Origin: a virus | IMG/VR virus record: IMGVR_UViG_3300021962_000704 | Coordinates: 1 to 22,467 of that record | Length of the DNA: 22,467 nucleotides | Strand: one strand, 5' to 3' | Shown here: one piece after another, positions 11,192 through 21,154 of the stretch | How positions within the stretch are numbered: the first letter of the stretch is position 1 | Layout of the letters: each line of letters opens with the position of its first letter | Position numbers and translations under genes: made by a program | The notes under the pieces: model-generated | What the model saw: only the letters and a program-made list of their open reading frames with translations | Told to the model about the DNA's origin: nothing | Databases searched by the model: none

Positions 11192-12478
11192 ATGGCAGAA
11201 TGGAAAAAGGTCATAGTCTCAGGCTCCGCAGCCGAACTATCATCGCTTAGTTTAACAACCGACTTATCGGTTGCAAATGGGGGTACTGGGGCATCAACCT
11301 TTACCGCAGGTCAACTCTTGACAGGAAACGGAACGAGTGCAGTAACTACAACAGCAGTTAACGGTACTGGTAATATTGTAGCAACTACTGGTGCAACTGG
11401 TTTATCAGCATCTGGTTCATTTAGTGGATCATTTCAAGGTAATGGTGCAGGTTTAACTGGAGTAACTGCAACAGCAGTATTCCCAACAACCAACCTAACA
11501 CCAATCACAGCAGCATCTCAATTATTTGCTAACGATGGTGTAAACAAATACGTAACAGTAGGACAAGTATCGGCTTCAGTATATGGAGGAGTATCGAGTG
11601 ACATTACAATTTCAGCAGCAGGTGTTGCTTCAATTGCAGCTGACTCAGTAGCATTAGGAACTGACACAACTGGAAACTACGTTGCAACAATCGATGCAGG
11701 TGCAGGTTTGACTGGTGGTGCAACTACTGGTGAAGGTATTGCTCACACACTTGCGGTAGGTGCAGGTACTCACATCACAGTAAACGCGAATGATGTAGCA
11801 GTTAATACTGGAACATTAGTACCAGCGATTTCTGGTTCAATCTTTGGACAAGTATCAGGTGACGTATTAATAACTGGAGCAGGTGTTGCTACAATTCAAG
11901 CGAATGCAGTTGCTATCTCAACAGACGTATCTGGATTAGGAACTGGAGTTGCAACATTCTTAGCTACTCCATCATCAGCTAACTTAGCAGCAGCGGTAAC
12001 GGATGAAACGGGAACTGGAAACTTAGTATTCTCAGCATCTCCAACGTTCACTGGAACCTTAAACGCAGCAGCAATCTCCACATCAGGAAACGTAACTGTA
12101 GGTGGTAACTTGACTGTAACTGGATTAATCACTGGATCAGCAACATTTATTAACTCCACTAACGTATCGATTACTGATCAGTTTATATTACTAGCATCTG
12201 GATCAGGAGTAACGGTAGATGCAGGTATTATTGTTCAAGATGCAGCAGGTGATGGTGAAGCGTTCTACTGGGAAAACAACACAACCGGTACATCACGTTG
12301 GGCAATCGCATCATCTGTATCTCCATCTGCAGTAACAGTAACAGCAGCGGAATACATGGTATCTGCTAAAACAGCAGCAGGTGCTCCATCAGGAGCTCCT
12401 ACATATGGTGGTGCAACAAATGGATTTGGTCAGATGCACATAAATAGTGCAACTAGCGACATTTATATTTACGCATAA
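11192..12478 (+). CDS. Fibre/adhesin-like virion protein
   Basis: 428 aa, almost all Gly, Ala, Ser, Thr and Val in short alternating strands. This composition indicates a trimeric beta-stalk. Residues 1-20 (AEWKKVIVSGSAAELSSLSL) match the start of the 1336-aa fibre (PSWKKVITSGSDAVLNSLSG), so the two share a virion-anchor module. Repeated units include GNGTSAVTTTAVNGTGN, ITISAAGVASIAADSVAL and VLITGAGVATIQANAVAI. The C-terminal 110 residues or so contain a distinct domain (QFILLASGSGVTVDAGIIVQ, then EAFYWENNTTGTSRWAIASS) that is the likely tip. There is no enzymatic motif. It probably binds or decorates the outside of the particle. Whether it sits on the neck, tail or baseplate cannot be told from the sequence. 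Confidence 0.75.
   Translation: MAEWKKVIVSGSAAELSSLSLTTDLSVANGGTGASTFTAGQLLTGNGTSAVTTTAVNGTGNIVATTGATGLSASGSFSGSFQGNGAGLTGVTATAVFPTTNLTPITAASQLFANDGVNKYVTVGQVSASVYGGVSSDITISAAGVASIAADSVALGTDTTGNYVATIDAGAGLTGGATTGEGIAHTLAVGAGTHITVNANDVAVNTGTLVPAISGSIFGQVSGDVLITGAGVATIQANAVAISTDVSGLGTGVATFLATPSSANLAAAVTDETGTGNLVFSASPTFTGTLNAAAISTSGNVTVGGNLTVTGLITGSATFINSTNVSITDQFILLASGSGVTVDAGIIVQDAAGDGEAFYWENNTTGTSRWAIASSVSPSAVTVTAAEYMVSAKTAAGAPSGAPTYGGATNGFGQMHINSATSDIYIYA
12460..12467 (+). promoter_or_regulatory. Variant late-promoter motif (CATTTATA)
   Basis: One base differs from TATTTATA. It lies inside the end of the preceding coding region, 26 nt before the ATG at 12494. It may serve the two small genes that follow, or be chance coding sequence (encoding Ile-Tyr-Ile-Tyr). 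Confidence 0.2.
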
Positions 12479-13050: not shown

Positions 13051-16000
13051 ATGCCAAGTTGGAAAAAAGTCATTACCTCAGGCTCTGATGCCGTATTAAA
13101 CTCTCTATCAGGATCCTCGTTTGTTTACTCAGGAGCAGACGTAACCGCAGCACAAAATCTAAGATCAATAAACTCATCAGGAGATGAGGGAGGGGAAATC
13201 TTCCTTAATAAAGCCGTTACAAACACATCTATTACGGGAGGTGTTACTATCGATGTTTGGCAAAATAGATTAAGATTTTTTGAGCAAGGGGGCACTGCAC
13301 GAGGATATTTCTTGGATATTACAGCAGGCGGTGCAGGTGTTGGAACAAACCTAGCATCGGGAGGTGGAACTGTAACATCAGTATCAACAGCAGGAACAGT
13401 ATCGGGTATCACTCTAACTGGTGGTCCTATTACGGGAGCAGGTACAATCACATTAGGTGGATCTATTTCAGGTTTGACAAACTCAAACTTATCAGGCACA
13501 GCGGGTATTACAAATGCTAACTTAGCAAATAGCAGTGTTACGATTGGATCAACTGCAATATCGTTAGGAAGCACGTCTACAACGTTAGCAGGATTAACAA
13601 GCGTAACATCGACTAATTTTACCGGCTCTCTACTTGGTACAGCATCTTGGGCAACTAATGTTGTTAACAATGGAGTAACCTCAGTAGGAGGTACTGGTAC
13701 TGTTAATGGCATCACACTAACTGGTACAGTAACAAGTACTGGTAACTTGACTTTAGGAGGTACACTTTCCGGTATTGGTAACTCACAACTAACAAATAGT
13801 AGCATTACAATCGGATCAACCGCTATATCATTAGGTGGAACATCAACCACATTGGCAGGACTTACTAGTGTAACTTCAACAAGCTTTACTGGTTCATTAT
13901 TAGGAACAGCTTCATTTGCGAGAACTGCATCTTACGCAATCAACCCAACAATATCAGGTTCAATTAACAATGTAGATTACATTGATTTTGCTACCGGTAG
14001 TGTTATTGGAACCAACGCACCTGCCTGGAAACAAGGTCGATTGTTTTATGATTCTGGTTCCGGTGCATTAGCAATGTACAATTGGGAACAAGATGTAACA
14101 TTAAACATAGGACAAGAACAATGGTTAAGAGCTAGAAACCAAACTGGTGTCACTATTACAAATGGTTCAGTTGTTAGATTAAGTAGTGCTATTGGAGATA
14201 GACCAACAGTTGTTTTAGCTCAAGCTACCGACCAATCAAACGCTTTTAGTACCGGTAATGAGATTATGGGTATGGCAACGCACGATATCGAACATGGAAC
14301 AGATGGTTTCATAACTACATTTGGGATAGTTAACGGAGTAAACACATCAGCATTCACAGCCGGTGACTTGTTATGGGTATCACAGTCTGCAGGACAGTTT
14401 ACAAATACACCTCCAGCAGCTCCAATTGATAAAACTTTTGTTGGTATCGTAACTAGAGCCAATCCATCCAATGGTTCAATATTTATGACACCATCAACAC
14501 CAATTCACTTTCATGATATAAGTTCAGTTTCAGCGTCTACATACCAACAAGGAGACTTATGGATGTATCGCTCAGGATCTGCTGGATTATCCAATGCTTG
14601 GATTAATACAAAACAACTATCAGGTTCATATGGTTTAACGGGAAGCTTAACAGCAACTTCGTTTACTGGTTCACTATTAGGAACAGCATCATTTGCACGA
14701 AGTGCTTCATACGCAGTTTCGTCTTCATGGACAACTCCAGGTGGAAATAATCGAGCTGTGCAGTTTAACAACAGCGGTACTTTAGGAGGTGAGGATTTTT
14801 TCACATACAATTCATCACTAAGAGCAGTGACGCAGGGAGCTTTCAATATAGCATCAGCAAACTACGCCCATGCGGAAGGGTTATTCGCATCAGCATCAGG
14901 TGAATATTCACACGCAGAAGGAGCAGGAACAAAAGCAATTGGTAATTACTCACACGCAGAAGGTCAGAATACAATCGCTACTGGATTGGGTTCTCACGCA
15001 GAGGGTTTAGGTAGTATATCAGTAGGTAATTTATCACACGCGGAGGGTGGATTTACATCAGCCTCTGCAGACCTATCTCACGCTGAAGGATCGCAGACAA
15101 TAGCATCAGGAAACGGTTCACATGCAGAAGGTAGTGCTACTATAGCATTAGGACAATACACACATGCGGAGGGTAGAAGCACAGTAGCGTCGGGATCATT
15201 CTCACACGCGGAAGGGTTATTCACATCAGCATCAGGTCAGCATTCGCATGTAGAAGGTTACTATGCAGTTGCAAGTGGAATATATTCTCACGCTGAAGGT
15301 ATTAGTACAGTCACTTTTGGGTCAAGTTCACACGCAGAAGGTGAAAAGACTTCAACATATGGAGTTGCATCGCATGCAGAAGGTAGCTATAGTACAACGG
15401 GAGCTATCACTGCATACATGGCAACACTAGGATCTAATCCTGGAGAATATGTACTAAACTCATCGTATGGTGACCAAACTAGCTACCTATCACAAGATAG
15501 CCGAGTTCTAATTGATGACACACCATACGCCAACACTTATGGTTTTACTGAAACGACAATATCATCATCCTATTTTAGTGGAACTAATACGGTTATAACT
15601 TTTCTCGATACGAGCATTTCAACTAGTACAATTCTAGTAGTTAACAAACAATATTTGAATGCAAGTCAAGGTAATCAGTCTATAGGTGGTAATTACGGAC
15701 ACGCAGAAGGTTATCAAACCAAAGCAGCAGGAATGTATTCACACGCCGAGGGATTTAATGCATTTGCAATAGGTGATTATTCACATGCCGAAGGTGAGAG
15801 TGCCTTTGCTTACGGACAAGGTTCACACGCCGAGGGTGTTAGTGAGACCTACGGTAGTTACTCACACGCAGAAGGTAATGGTAGCATTACATATGGAGAA
15901 AGTTCACACGCAGAAGGTCGCAAGACATATTCCGGAGCTGGAGCATATAACCCTGATAGTTCAATTGCAGCCGGTGTATTTTCATTAGATAAATACTATG

Positions 16001-17061
16001 GTGATTTAACAGCACAATTTGCAGCAGGTACTTTCATAGTATTACAAGACAAGGATGGATACACAAATGGTGGATTCCCAGTAACAAGGATGCTTGAGAT
16101 TGCATCTTCAACAATGAATGGAACACCAGCAACAGAAATCACACTAGTGGATACTAGCGTTGATACTGGTGGTGGGAATAAATACCGAGTTGGGTACTCG
16201 TCCAACGGCATTGATACTGAATTATGGCCACTATATTGGAGTACTACAATTGGTAATGAATCACATGCACAAGGTGTCGAGTCTGTAACTGTCGGATTAT
16301 ACTCGAACGCATCCGGAGGAAGTACTATAGCTCTTGGTGTAGGTCAATCAGTGGTTGGTTTATTAAACACACCAACCGAGGATAGTTATGCCTTTATTGT
16401 TGGAGGTGGTAATGAATCATCTGGTGCTAGAGACAACACGCTAGTTGCTACAACAGCGAATGTTACAATCAATCGACCAACAGTAATATCGTATAATACT
16501 GGCGGTACACAAGCGCTAAACACAACCGATCCAGAAGTTAGAACTGCACAAGTTTATGATACTACTACAAAGTCCCGCGACGTACAAGAGAAGATTTCCG
16601 ATTCTATCGGAAGTAATCCAGTTAGAAACTACACCGGAGACATTATTGAAGGATATGTTAATCTATCTAACATACCTTTAGATGGACAACTATGTTACCT
16701 GGATAGTGATGATTTGTGGTATTTAGTAGATCAAAGTAGTACAAAAGCTACCTTCCTACTAGGACTACCATTTAACATAGATACAGGAACTGGTAGATGC
16801 CAGATATTATTAGAAGGTCATGTAACGGTTACTGATTCGGGAGGAGGATCGGGATATCCATACGTCCGCGCAGCTGACTCTGGTATACCGGTATATATAG
16901 AGAACAATACAACAGTCGGTAATATGGACACCACTGTACCGACAACAACGAGCGGTACGAATGTAGTAAGGGTATTAGGACATTGCTATTATCAAAACTC
17001 AGTCAACACTAATAATTGGCAAATGAAATTTAAACCATCAAATGATTGGGTATTAATTTAA
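13051..17061 (+). CDS. Long tail/neck fibre with YadA-head-like SHAEG repeats
   Basis: 1336 aa, the largest protein here. Order of parts: anchor (residues 1-20, PSWKKVITSGSDAVLNSLSG, shared with the 428-aa fibre); tandem stalk modules (about 107-196 and 208-295) each ending in SLLGTAS(F/W)A; a module at about 310-490 (GSVVRLSSAIGDRPTVVLAQ and FTAGDLLWVSQSAG) seen in many phage fibres; a third stripe near 540; 13 HAEG repeats with 14-residue period (606-778); an inserted domain (779-882); 6 more repeats (883-956); a second, related insert (957-1070); one degenerate repeat (1071); then a C-terminal receptor-type region ending MKFKPSNDWVLI. HAEG repeats resemble the left-handed beta-roll of trimeric autotransporter adhesin heads (YadA/Hep_Hag type). 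It is probably a trimeric fibre used in host binding. Its position next to neck genes leaves the attachment site open. Confidence 0.85.
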   Translation: MPSWKKVITSGSDAVLNSLSGSSFVYSGADVTAAQNLRSINSSGDEGGEIFLNKAVTNTSITGGVTIDVWQNRLRFFEQGGTARGYFLDITAGGAGVGTNLASGGGTVTSVSTAGTVSGITLTGGPITGAGTITLGGSISGLTNSNLSGTAGITNANLANSSVTIGSTAISLGSTSTTLAGLTSVTSTNFTGSLLGTASWATNVVNNGVTSVGGTGTVNGITLTGTVTSTGNLTLGGTLSGIGNSQLTNSSITIGSTAISLGGTSTTLAGLTSVTSTSFTGSLLGTASFARTASYAINPTISGSINNVDYIDFATGSVIGTNAPAWKQGRLFYDSGSGALAMYNWEQDVTLNIGQEQWLRARNQTGVTITNGSVVRLSSAIGDRPTVVLAQATDQSNAFSTGNEIMGMATHDIEHGTDGFITTFGIVNGVNTSAFTAGDLLWVSQSAGQFTNTPPAAPIDKTFVGIVTRANPSNGSIFMTPSTPIHFHDISSVSASTYQQGDLWMYRSGSAGLSNAWINTKQLSGSYGLTGSLTATSFTGSLLGTASFARSASYAVSSSWTTPGGNNRAVQFNNSGTLGGEDFFTYNSSLRAVTQGAFNIASANYAHAEGLFASASGEYSHAEGAGTKAIGNYSHAEGQNTIATGLGSHAEGLGSISVGNLSHAEGGFTSASADLSHAEGSQTIASGNGSHAEGSATIALGQYTHAEGRSTVASGSFSHAEGLFTSASGQHSHVEGYYAVASGIYSHAEGISTVTFGSSSHAEGEKTSTYGVASHAEGSYSTTGAITAYMATLGSNPGEYVLNSSYGDQTSYLSQDSRVLIDDTPYANTYGFTETTISSSYFSGTNTVITFLDTSISTSTILVVNKQYLNASQGNQSIGGNYGHAEGYQTKAAGMYSHAEGFNAFAIGDYSHAEGESAFAYGQGSHAEGVSETYGSYSHAEGNGSITYGESSHAEGRKTYSGAGAYNPDSSIAAGVFSLDKYYGDLTAQFAAGTFIVLQDKDGYTNGGFPVTRMLEIASSTMNGTPATEITLVDTSVDTGGGNKYRVGYSSNGIDTELWPLYWSTTIGNESHAQGVESVTVGLYSNASGGSTIALGVGQSVVGLLNTPTEDSYAFIVGGGNESSGARDNTLVATTANVTINRPTVISYNTGGTQALNTTDPEVRTAQVYDTTTKSRDVQEKISDSIGSNPVRNYTGDIIEGYVNLSNIPLDGQLCYLDSDDLWYLVDQSSTKATFLLGLPFNIDTGTGRCQILLEGHVTVTDSGGGSGYPYVRAADSGIPVYIENNTTVGNMDTTVPTTTSGTNVVRVLGHCYYQNSVNTNNWQMKFKPSNDWVLI
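13369..13938 (+). repeat. Tandem stalk-module duplication in the long fibre
   Basis: Two units of about 88 residues (107-196 and 208-295) share TVTSV/GVTSV starts, a GITLTG core, IGSTAISLG-STTLAGLTSVTST and a SLLGTAS end. The amino-acid identity is clear, while DNA codons differ. This is coding DNA, not a mobile repeat. Confidence 0.85.
14866..15384 (+). repeat. SHAEG repeat block 1 (13 units)
   Basis: Thirteen (S/A/T)HAEG units (one HVEG) at residues 606-778, with an average period of exactly 14 residues or 42 nt. The DNA units vary at third positions. Confidence 0.92.
15697..15918 (+). repeat. SHAEG repeat block 2 (6 units)
   Basis: Six HAEG units at residues 883-956, with period 14 except one 13-residue unit (after VSETYG). 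A single degenerate unit, SHAQG, follows at 16261-16275. Confidence 0.92.
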
Positions 17062-18775: not shown

Positions 18776-21154
18776 ATGGCCGAAAGAATAGTATCACCAG
18801 GAGTATTTACAAACGAGAAAGACCTTTCGTTTTTGCCTGCAGGAATTGCAGCAATTGGAGCAGCGATCGTTGGACCAACAACTAAAGGACCTGCGTTTGT
18901 ACCTACAGTGGTAAACAACTTTAATGACTTTATCGCGAAGTTTGGTGGTTTGAGCGAAGACACTTATGTACCTTACGCAGTTAAGAGTTACCTAAACAGC
19001 GCCGCTACGGTGACTGTTGTGCGTGTTCTTACATCTGGAGGATATAATGCAAAATCAGTACAAATTATTTACTCAGGTTCTCTTGGGTTTAAATTAGTTG
19101 GTGTAATTTTACCATCTACTGCAATTGGCTTCTCAACTGGAAACGGATTCGAAAAATCAGCATTTACTGGTTCAATCAGTGTAACTGGATCCAAAGGATT
19201 CATCTTATCAGGATCAGGAGTATCAACTCAAGTATTAACAGCATCAGCTAACCCAGCAAGTGTAGATTCATTTACAAACGTACTAGGTACATCAGTAAAA
19301 GGAACTAAGAAAGGATATGTGTACACGTACGCTAGCGACTTCTTAAGCTCTAATGCTGGTTTATCAGGATCTGTCTTCTTTGAGACTGGATCAACATCAG
19401 CACTTGTAGACTTGTCTAGTTCAATTTATGGAAACTATGCACCAGCTGCAACACCATACATTACATCACAAATTATTGGGGGTTCTAAACTTCAATTATT
19501 TAAAGTAGTGTCTTTGGCAGATGGAACAGACACAAACACTGCATACAAAATTAGTATTGTCAACACAACTATCCCAGGAACAGATCCAGGATCAGACTAT
19601 GGTTCATTTACTCTATTGGTGCGTGAATACGGTGACACAGACCAAAGACCAGTTGTTCTTGAGTCTTACACTAACTTGAACTTAGACCCAGATTCTTCTA
19701 ACTACATCACAAGACGAATTGGAGATAGAAGCTTCTCAGTAGATGCAGCAGGTGTTGTATCAATTAATGGAGATTATAGAAACGTATCAAAATACATCCG
19801 TATCGAGGTAGCTGACGACGTTAAGAACAAAGCAATCAGTGCAAATGTTAAACCATTTGGATATGAGGCTTTGGTACAACCAATCTCTTCAAGCTACACA
19901 ATGCCAACAGCTTCTATAGTTAGCCAATTAACTCAAATCAATGGTTCTTATAGTAAGAAAGCATACTACGGATGGGATTATGCATCTAATGACAACGTTA
20001 ACTTCTTGAAACCTTTAGCAAAAGGAACAGTACAATTAGGAAACGGATTCAACTTAGATGAGTGTTTCTTACACCCAAGTGCATCTAAAGCAAACGCCAA
20101 CTCTACATTCGTAGGAGGATCAAGTGTATCAGCTTCAGTCTTTGTAGGACTAGATGTAAATAACGTATTGAAATTCAACATACCATTACAAGGTGGTTTT
20201 GATGGAATGGATCCAGCAATACCTAAGTATGTAGGTTCAGCTATTAGACCAAACAACCTATTTGGTATGGATTGTACAAATGCAAATACGCCAGGTGGAG
20301 CAGCTTATGTAAAAGCCCTTAACACAATCGCAAATGCTGACGAGTATGATATCAACCTAATCGTTACTCCAGGAGCAACAATCAAAGATCACGCAGCGAT
20401 TATCAACAAATCAATCGAAGTAGCTGAAGATCGTGGAGATGCATTTGTATTAGCAGATCCAATCGTACAAGGAGGATCAGTAGCAGCAGCAGTAGCAGCA
20501 GTAGTAGATTCAGGAATTGATTCAAACTACGTAGGTACTTACTGGCCATGGGTTAAAATCATCGATACAGATAAAAACAAACCGGTATGGGTTCCACCAA
20601 GTGTAATCGTACCACGTGTAATGGCATACAACGATTCAGTAGCATACGAATGGTTTGCACCAGCAGGTCTAAATCGTGGAGGTGTATCTGAAGCAGTAGA
20701 CGTAGAGTTGAGATTGAACCAAGCACAACGTAATGACCTTTATGAAAATAAAGTAAATGCGATTGCAACATTCCCTAACCAAGGAGTATGTATCTGGGGT
20801 CAGAAAACACTACAAGCTAAACCATCAGCACTAGATAGAATCAACGTACGTCGTTTGATGATTACATTGAAAAAATTCATCGCATCTTCAAGCCGTTACT
20901 TAGTGTTCGAAAACAACACAACAGCGACTCGTCAAAGATTCTTGAACATTGTAACACCATACTTAGAGACTGTAAAATCTCGTCAAGGATTGTATGCTTT
21001 CCGTGTAATCATGGATGAGACAAACAACACACCTGACGTAATCGACAGAAACATCATGTACGGTCAGATCTACTTACAACCAGCAAAAGCAGCAGAATTT
21101 ATCGTATTAGACTTTAACATTCTTCCTACTGGAGCAACTTTTGATAACGCTTAA
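18776..21154 (+). CDS. 18: Tail sheath protein (gp18-like)
   Basis: 792 aa (T4 gp18 is 659). The N-terminus MAERIVSPGVFTNEKDLSF is typical of T4-family sheath proteins; GVFTNEKD is the exit-arm start. The C-terminal domain (about 640-790) is the most conserved part, with LMITLKKFIASSSRYLVFEN, a segment through NIVTPYLETVKSRQGLYAF, and FIVLDFNILPTGATF. The sheath contracts around the tube to drive infection. The extra length over T4 sits in the Ser/Gly-rich middle (about 95-330), which would be the surface-exposed domain. Arg codons are mostly CGT in the C-terminal half, as in the capsid gene, fitting high expression. It is followed 19 nt later by the tube gene with no terminator between, so the two share a transcript. 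Confidence 0.96.
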   Translation: MAERIVSPGVFTNEKDLSFLPAGIAAIGAAIVGPTTKGPAFVPTVVNNFNDFIAKFGGLSEDTYVPYAVKSYLNSAATVTVVRVLTSGGYNAKSVQIIYSGSLGFKLVGVILPSTAIGFSTGNGFEKSAFTGSISVTGSKGFILSGSGVSTQVLTASANPASVDSFTNVLGTSVKGTKKGYVYTYASDFLSSNAGLSGSVFFETGSTSALVDLSSSIYGNYAPAATPYITSQIIGGSKLQLFKVVSLADGTDTNTAYKISIVNTTIPGTDPGSDYGSFTLLVREYGDTDQRPVVLESYTNLNLDPDSSNYITRRIGDRSFSVDAAGVVSINGDYRNVSKYIRIEVADDVKNKAISANVKPFGYEALVQPISSSYTMPTASIVSQLTQINGSYSKKAYYGWDYASNDNVNFLKPLAKGTVQLGNGFNLDECFLHPSASKANANSTFVGGSSVSASVFVGLDVNNVLKFNIPLQGGFDGMDPAIPKYVGSAIRPNNLFGMDCTNANTPGGAAYVKALNTIANADEYDINLIVTPGATIKDHAAIINKSIEVAEDRGDAFVLADPIVQGGSVAAAVAAVVDSGIDSNYVGTYWPWVKIIDTDKNKPVWVPPSVIVPRVMAYNDSVAYEWFAPAGLNRGGVSEAVDVELRLNQAQRNDLYENKVNAIATFPNQGVCIWGQKTLQAKPSALDRINVRRLMITLKKFIASSSRYLVFENNTTATRQRFLNIVTPYLETVKSRQGLYAFRVIMDETNNTPDVIDRNIMYGQIYLQPAKAAEFIVLDFNILPTGATFDNA

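Follow-up and report, generated by a model that had tools for sequence, protein, structure and literature searches.

Predicted beta-barrel domains inserted at one turn of the YadA-type beta-roll of a phage fibre

What are the two domains that interrupt the SHAEG repeat of a large phage fibre protein, and what might they do there? The protein is encoded by the viral record IMGVR_UViG_3300021962_000704, whose 22,467 bases were analysed whole and are here called the window. Its fibre open reading frame (ORF), P0001, carries an array of SHAEG units broken by two stretches, inserts 1 and 2, which an earlier note written from the sequence alone had described as a duplicated domain budding from the beta-roll and as a candidate receptor-binding part. 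The reading we favour, at a probability of roughly 0.55, is that the inserts belong to a family of barrels plugged into a fixed turn of the roll, where they would form outer rings on a fibre trimer, and that a recurring arrangement of an A-like insert, six coils and a B-like insert (A-six-B) suggests packing of these rings. They represent a new insertion-domain family, in which a known scaffold bears a known kind of fold in a place where none was found described. The ORF is laid out as follows.

13051..17061, + strand: fibre ORF P0001, 1336 residues, an open frame upstream of the tail sheath gene at 18776
13951..14649, + strand: middle domain, about residues 301-533, 86% identical to that of fibre L149/L043
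14866..15384, + strand: SHAEG array 1, 13 units, residues 606-778, a YadA-type left-handed beta-roll of 14-residue spacing whose modelled coils match BoaA (3s6l)
15385..15696, + strand: insert 1, residues 779-882 (104 residues), A-like; core residues 787-878 (nucleotides 15409-15684)
15697..15918, + strand: SHAEG array 2, six units, residues 883-956, separating the inserts
15919..16260, + strand: insert 2, residues 957-1070 (114 residues), B-like; core about residues 965-1059 (nucleotides 15943-16227)
16261..16425, + strand: last SHAEG-type unit (SHAQG, residues 1071-1075) and degenerate coils, their end near residue 1125 judged by eye; stretches related to segment 1075-1160 were found
16528..17058, + strand: C-terminal region, residues 1160-1336, common to other fibre ORFs (15 matches, best 49%)

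Relatedness of the inserts and extent of the family

The two inserts are related, as the earlier note held, and lie between SHAEG units at residues 779-882 and 957-1070. BLASTP aligns them with E 2e-5 (34% identity over 65 residues), and their Smith-Waterman score of 75 was reached by none of 5000 shuffles (mean 32.9). The motifs listed earlier are all present: YGDQT and YGDLT, VLIDD with PYAN and VLQD with GYTN, TISSS and EIASS, and ITFLDTS and ITLVDTS, in inserts 1 and 2 respectively. The domains do not end at ITxxDTS as had been proposed, since about 25 more residues with at least one more predicted strand precede the resumption of the array. A profile of 58 inserts from other contigs, window excluded, finds inserts 1 and 2 with domain i-Evalues of 8.5e-18 and 2.6e-15, scaled to 10,000 sequences; in a control, the best of 2000 shuffled inserts reached 0.028 (whole-sequence E 0.0063). 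The profile-profile alignment suggested in the earlier note also succeeded: profiles of the A-like set (17 rows) and the B-like set (13 rows), hand-picked out of 68 rows from BLAST results and a tree and including the window rows, align with a probability of 99%.

Neither insert resembles the SHAEG units above shuffles. The idea of a domain budding from the roll is thus not borne out. Against residues 1110-1336, insert 2 scored above 97% of 300 shuffles, which is put down to chance, eight comparisons having been made. An origin of the inserts by recent local duplication from the roll is very improbable and largely excluded. The window inserts are homologous, and recent duplication has occurred elsewhere, the two inserts of L123 being 76% identical over 94 residues; against this, the predicted fold is unlike a coil, and each window insert has closer relatives in other phages. 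The best five matches of insert 1 (L127, L148, L146, L123 and L131) are 41-43% identical, and the best rows for insert 2 (L148, L085, L127, L137 and L134) are 46-60% identical. These values exceed the 34% identity between the two, which speaks against a recent local duplication as the source of the pair. The inserts represent two older subfamilies, one A-like and the other B-like. Resolution is poor in the tree of 68 domains, with few supported forks; the approximately unbiased (AU) test did not formally reject the window pair as sisters (p 0.0586), and a ten-row B clade was neither recovered in the tree nor rejected (p 0.377).

Related loci were gathered by two DNA-pattern scans (SHAEG, then YG-N/D-x-T at a set distance) and by searches with the sheath, insert 1 and the whole fibre, which together gave 225 loci in addition to those of the window. 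Among the first 148 loci, a number that includes three from the window, SHAEG-type motifs enclosed 68 distinct stretches of 45-200 residues, reduced to 66 by thinning; some of them are not insert-family domains. Profile matches numbered 108 in 66 ORFs (62 distinct), window included, and comprised 78 distinct domain sequences. Of these, 66 have a SHAEG-type motif on both sides, 12 on one side (five are cut by an end) and none on neither. The pattern scans select for the motif, yet further inserts in the same proteins turned up without such selection, and each locus was searched whole. When 24 viral records were searched whole with the profile, all 27 matches fell in the 16 records chosen for having inserts, with overlap with earlier loci possible, and none in the eight chosen for their sheath gene; two stretches from this search proved, when read, to be SHAEG fibres. 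In everything searched, then, there is one family of domains of about 90 residues that appears, from its sequence context, confined to SHAEG-type (YadA-like) beta-rolls of phage fibres.

No known family was matched by more than one member at E 0.1 in Pfam (39, then 62 members), PHROGs (39) or NCBIfam (62). The best PDB sequence match of the family profile, a GH81 glucanase at E 0.084, was not taken as real. One DNA-pattern scan of cellular genome contigs returned 46 loci, none with a profile match at E 0.1; its pattern fixes one His codon, so that bacterial copies are not excluded. Named phages, searched by tblastn with each of the two window inserts, gave no match at E 1, and the insert of L123 with its flanks retrieved ten records at E 0.1, the stretches from three of which (L275, which is Flavobacterium phage immuto, L276 and L277) had no profile match. 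A description of this insert was not found in the literature searched.

Several of these fibres show other departures from a plain array. An appendage protein of a Lachnospiraceae phage (L276, 2761-4260) carries, behind one of its SHAEG units, an insert of another kind that is about 100 residues long and was missed by the profile; another domain may occupy the same insertion site. SHAEG arrays can finish in QHVQG with an AFIxGNGTSxxxRxNLxxASGS-like stretch, a new array starting later in the protein (L096, L099 and L111). The fibre ORF of L093 that starts at 894 has 71 SHAEG-type motifs, four inserts judged by gap (97, 108, 110 and 136) and four steps of 7 rather than 14 residues, and an ORF of L150 starting at 1460 encodes a fibre of 2921 residues, which the profile matches weakly at two places and whose middle domain shares 77% identity with that of the window fibre.

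The insertion turn and the predicted fold

Insert 1 directly follows the SHAEG unit at residues 774-778 and insert 2 the unit at residues 952-956. Apart from the inserts and one step of 13, the spacing of the window's units is 14. In the numbering used for YadA-type heads, with Gly at position 8, SHAEG occupies positions 4-8; this invariant Gly is built into the search motif and is no independent test. Among 60 inserts, the window's two included, Gly is found at position 14 on exit in 52 and at position 1 on re-entry in 47. Units without an interruption, 1210 in number, have Ser at position 14 in 412 cases and Ile in 268. As read from these sequences, the inserts exit the roll at one fixed turn, from position 14 to position 1, and re-enter in register, so that the coil stack would be unbroken. 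The rare loop insertions and deletions of YadA-type heads are stated to fall between positions 14 and 1 as well (PMC9543794).

Structure prediction, proposed earlier as a check, gave each insert a confidently predicted fold of its own. AlphaFold2 models that included the flanking coils (alignments of 60 rows for insert 1 and 43 for insert 2) had a mean predicted local distance difference test (pLDDT) score of 93.0 for insert 1 and 90.5 for insert 2, with predicted template modelling (pTM) scores of 0.82 and 0.83. Neither outcome that the earlier note had named as refuting kinship or domain status, the lack of a profile match or of an independent fold, was seen. Each model shows a compact, strand-rich domain leaving a YadA-type beta-roll that is itself undisturbed; by VIA-align the flanking coils match solved YadA-type heads as one stack across the insert (against 3s6l, Z 12.7 and root mean square deviation (rmsd) 0.9 for insert 1, Z 13.2 and rmsd 1.1 for insert 2, 75 residues each).

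The insert domain is predicted to be a small beta-barrel. The nearest solved fold to insert 2 is residues 140-231 of K1 lyase (7w1d_H; Z 8.5, rmsd 2.3, 81 residues), a range within which the rider mutants described in PMC8822698 (residues 154-215) fall, followed by GH110 (Z 7.7); Foldseek also matched insert 2 to K1 lyase at 4.0e-5, over 200 columns and hence more than the insert. For insert 1 the nearest is GH110 (Z 7.7, rmsd 2.8, 77 residues).

Other results weigh against reading much into this likeness. Insert 1 matches K1 lyase (7w1c_B) with a Z of only 6.7, in a range (below 8) that the tool warns may mean little, and has no Foldseek match in the PDB at 0.001. Small barrels are common, and EF-Tu, E1 enzymes, polymerases and T5 pb9 also appear in the fold lists at Z about 6. 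An hhalign comparison of A4 with the K1 rider region gave a probability of 0.7% (P 0.078), with little power from a single template sequence. The likeness to the K1 rider is one of fold only, no sequence-profile link having been found.

Spacing, variation and possible roles

In the window fibre an A-like insert is followed six coils on by a B-like insert, close to the end of the array. This spacing recurs. The 17 thinned proteins that have two or more inserts give 27 spacings, of which nine equal six coils (1.85 expected) and three are shorter (12.7 expected), and none of 20,000 random placements was as extreme. A count by profile only, with none of 25 below six, misses divergent inserts; the fuller count is the 3 of 27 given here. 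Eight of the nine six-coil spacings end in a B-like insert, and eight of the nine spacings before a B-like insert equal six. Just one or two SHAEG-type units then follow the B-like insert in 11 of 13 rows, one of which (L116) stands at the end of its locus. The order of previous insert, six coils, B-like insert and end of array is thus found in eight of nine B-like pairs, and it recurs though the inserts have diverged (those of the window are 35-60% identical to other members). Its recurrence in diverged fibres suggests that the two rings pack as a unit.

The spacing data also hold points on the other side. Without the B-like inserts, 18 spacings in 12 proteins include one at six (1.13 expected), and the deficit of shorter spacings is weak (3 where 6.92 are expected, P 0.034); a general six-coil packing pitch was dropped for want of an excess at six in this set. 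Shorter spacings occur, of four coils in L116 and L118 and of five in L004, and the fibre of L283, outside these counts, has one of four. The A-six-B arrangement may be kept by packing or may simply be inherited, the latter telling against packing. Finally, the SHAEG array of immuto is uninterrupted and none of eight sheath-related viral records, possibly incomplete, had a profile match, from which it follows that such phages do not need the inserts.

The fibre roll would form a trimer, as solved YadA-type heads do, and each insert would then place three barrels in a ring around the exterior of the fibre; the A-like and B-like rings may pack as a unit, as their recurring arrangement suggests. 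By analogy with the K1 rider and the tailspike and GH110 barrels, the inserts would clamp the trimer and shape grooves that hold glycans, and they probably help the fibre both to hold together and to grip the host. We put forward only tentatively the further proposal that A-like and B-like rings of three barrels, six coils apart near the array end, pack to leave glycan pockets between barrels, as modules whose number, kind and place are varied by recombination.

The inserts are possibly the receptor-binding part of the fibre, as was suggested earlier, but a role as its primary receptor-binding domains, each directed by variable loops at a host molecule while the roll is merely a rod, seems unlikely. 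The earlier note had asked whether the inserts vary among close relatives more than the repeats. As the searches turned up no close relative of the complete window fibre, this comparison covers inserts of other fibres, and its outcome is mixed. Of 50 pairs of related but non-identical fibres, many of which overlap, 22 show higher conservation in the inserts than in the repeats, one shows no difference and 27 show lower conservation in the inserts; slips in the repeat alignment can lower repeat identity. The inserts were more conserved in 18 of 19 pairs with insert identity of at least 76%, and less so in all 18 at or below 53%. In 11 pairs hand-picked from this comparison for codon counts the inserts were more conserved in seven, which speaks against host-binding loops, and less in four. 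Three of the 11 had insert synonymous rates (dS) of 0.17-0.23 against 0.69-1.08 in the repeats, as if inserts were exchanged as units.

Binding by loops is favoured by the stretches that vary across the family, including residues 824-830 and 869-873, and by pairs whose inserts differ more than the rest of the protein (L127/L056, L135/L120 and L103/L116). The ratio of non-synonymous to synonymous rates (dN/dS) is raised in the inserts of some pairs, at 1.07 for L127/L056 (88 codons), 0.73 for L096/L095 and 0.65 for L135/L120. The distal part of the fibre also appears to be exchangeable as a whole: L149 (ORF from 4979) and L043 share the window's middle domain at 86% identity, but in their distal half the coils are of SVAIG type, with no SHAEG units and no match to the profile, a sequence pattern that we read as exchange of the entire distal part. 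Nevertheless, mean column entropy is alike in strands (2.34 bits) and other residues (2.28 bits), immuto has a SHAEG array without inserts, and the roll or the C-terminal region could equally hold a receptor site. The inserts are not consistently more variable than the repeats, which also counts against the reading we favour.

A purely structural role, in which the barrels, as clamps or spacers, serve to stiffen the trimer without contact to the host, is in our estimate quite unlikely. It draws on the fixed insertion site, the recurrence of A-six-B and the bonds made by the K1 riders, described below. Yet immuto manages without inserts, fibres differ in how many they carry (one to three by profile, and in L093 four judged by gap), and the barrel insertions of tailspikes also shape glycan sites (PMC10653864).

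If this is correct, it would join the YadA-type adhesin roll to the barrel insertion of tailspike enzymes, pieces not found described together. The family would provide a means of recognising fibres that lack annotation in uncultured phages and of splitting the distal portion of each into modules. It would also give testable statements on fibre construction, namely one insertion turn and a recurring A-six-B arrangement.

The source phage and comparison with known systems

The window encodes a Gp23-type capsid protein, a prohead protease, a tail sheath and a tail tube, and because of these genes its source is taken to be a contractile-tailed phage. With its counterparts in Flavobacterium phage immuto, an uncultured phage and Microcystis phage Mel-JY01, the capsid protein shares 52-54% identity. 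The fibre ORF matches phrog_25468 (function unknown; E 1.1e-47), and YadA_head (PF05658) at E 6.3e-4 with 20.5 bits, under the cut-off of 25; the protein had no match to an enzyme family in Pfam or PHROGs. Many fibre-like ORFs on other contigs share its first 19 residues (13051-13107) at 84-95% identity, and the window ORF at 11192 begins with a variant of them, perhaps a shared attachment tag.

The closest parallels in build come from tailspikes and enzymes. Like the inserts, the 'rider' of K1 lyase (7W1C/7W1D) and the barrels of LKA1 gp49 (4RU4), KP34gp57 (8BKE) and GH110 are domains of about 90 residues set in a turn of a coiled beta scaffold. The K1 rider departs from rung 2, touches rungs 6-8, binds the adjacent chain and stabilises the trimer, three riders contributing 27 hydrogen bonds and nine salt bridges; beneath it lies a second glycan site, non-catalytic, which it helps to form and in which R472A reduced adsorption of the phage (PMC8822698). 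Barrel insertions complete glycan clefts in several tailspikes (PMC10653864), and GH110 has two small barrels around its helix that are involved in the dimer (PMC7939477). In these sources the scaffold is a right-handed beta-helix bearing the active site, whereas the window fibre is modelled as a left-handed YadA-type roll. Its insert domain, unlike the tailspike and GH110 barrels, can recur within one fibre.

The YadA-type heads of BoaA, BpaC, EibD and AtaA have the same coil, 14-residue period and 14/1 insertion turn as the window fibre. They belong to bacterial surface proteins rather than phage fibres, and the sections available describe rare loop insertions and motifs such as FGG and HANS, with no account of this domain. 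Among phages, Flavobacterium phage vB_FspM_immuto (MW353176), whose capsid protein is 52.7% identical to the window's, has a SHAEG tail spike with 11 SHAEG-type units in an unbroken row and no inserts. The top Foldseek match of the insert 1 model among predicted viral proteins is UniProt A0A6J5LUW0 of an uncultured Caudovirales phage (BFVD; 33% identity over 202 columns, E 8.6e-7), whose name, 'LbR_YadA-like', refers to the roll.

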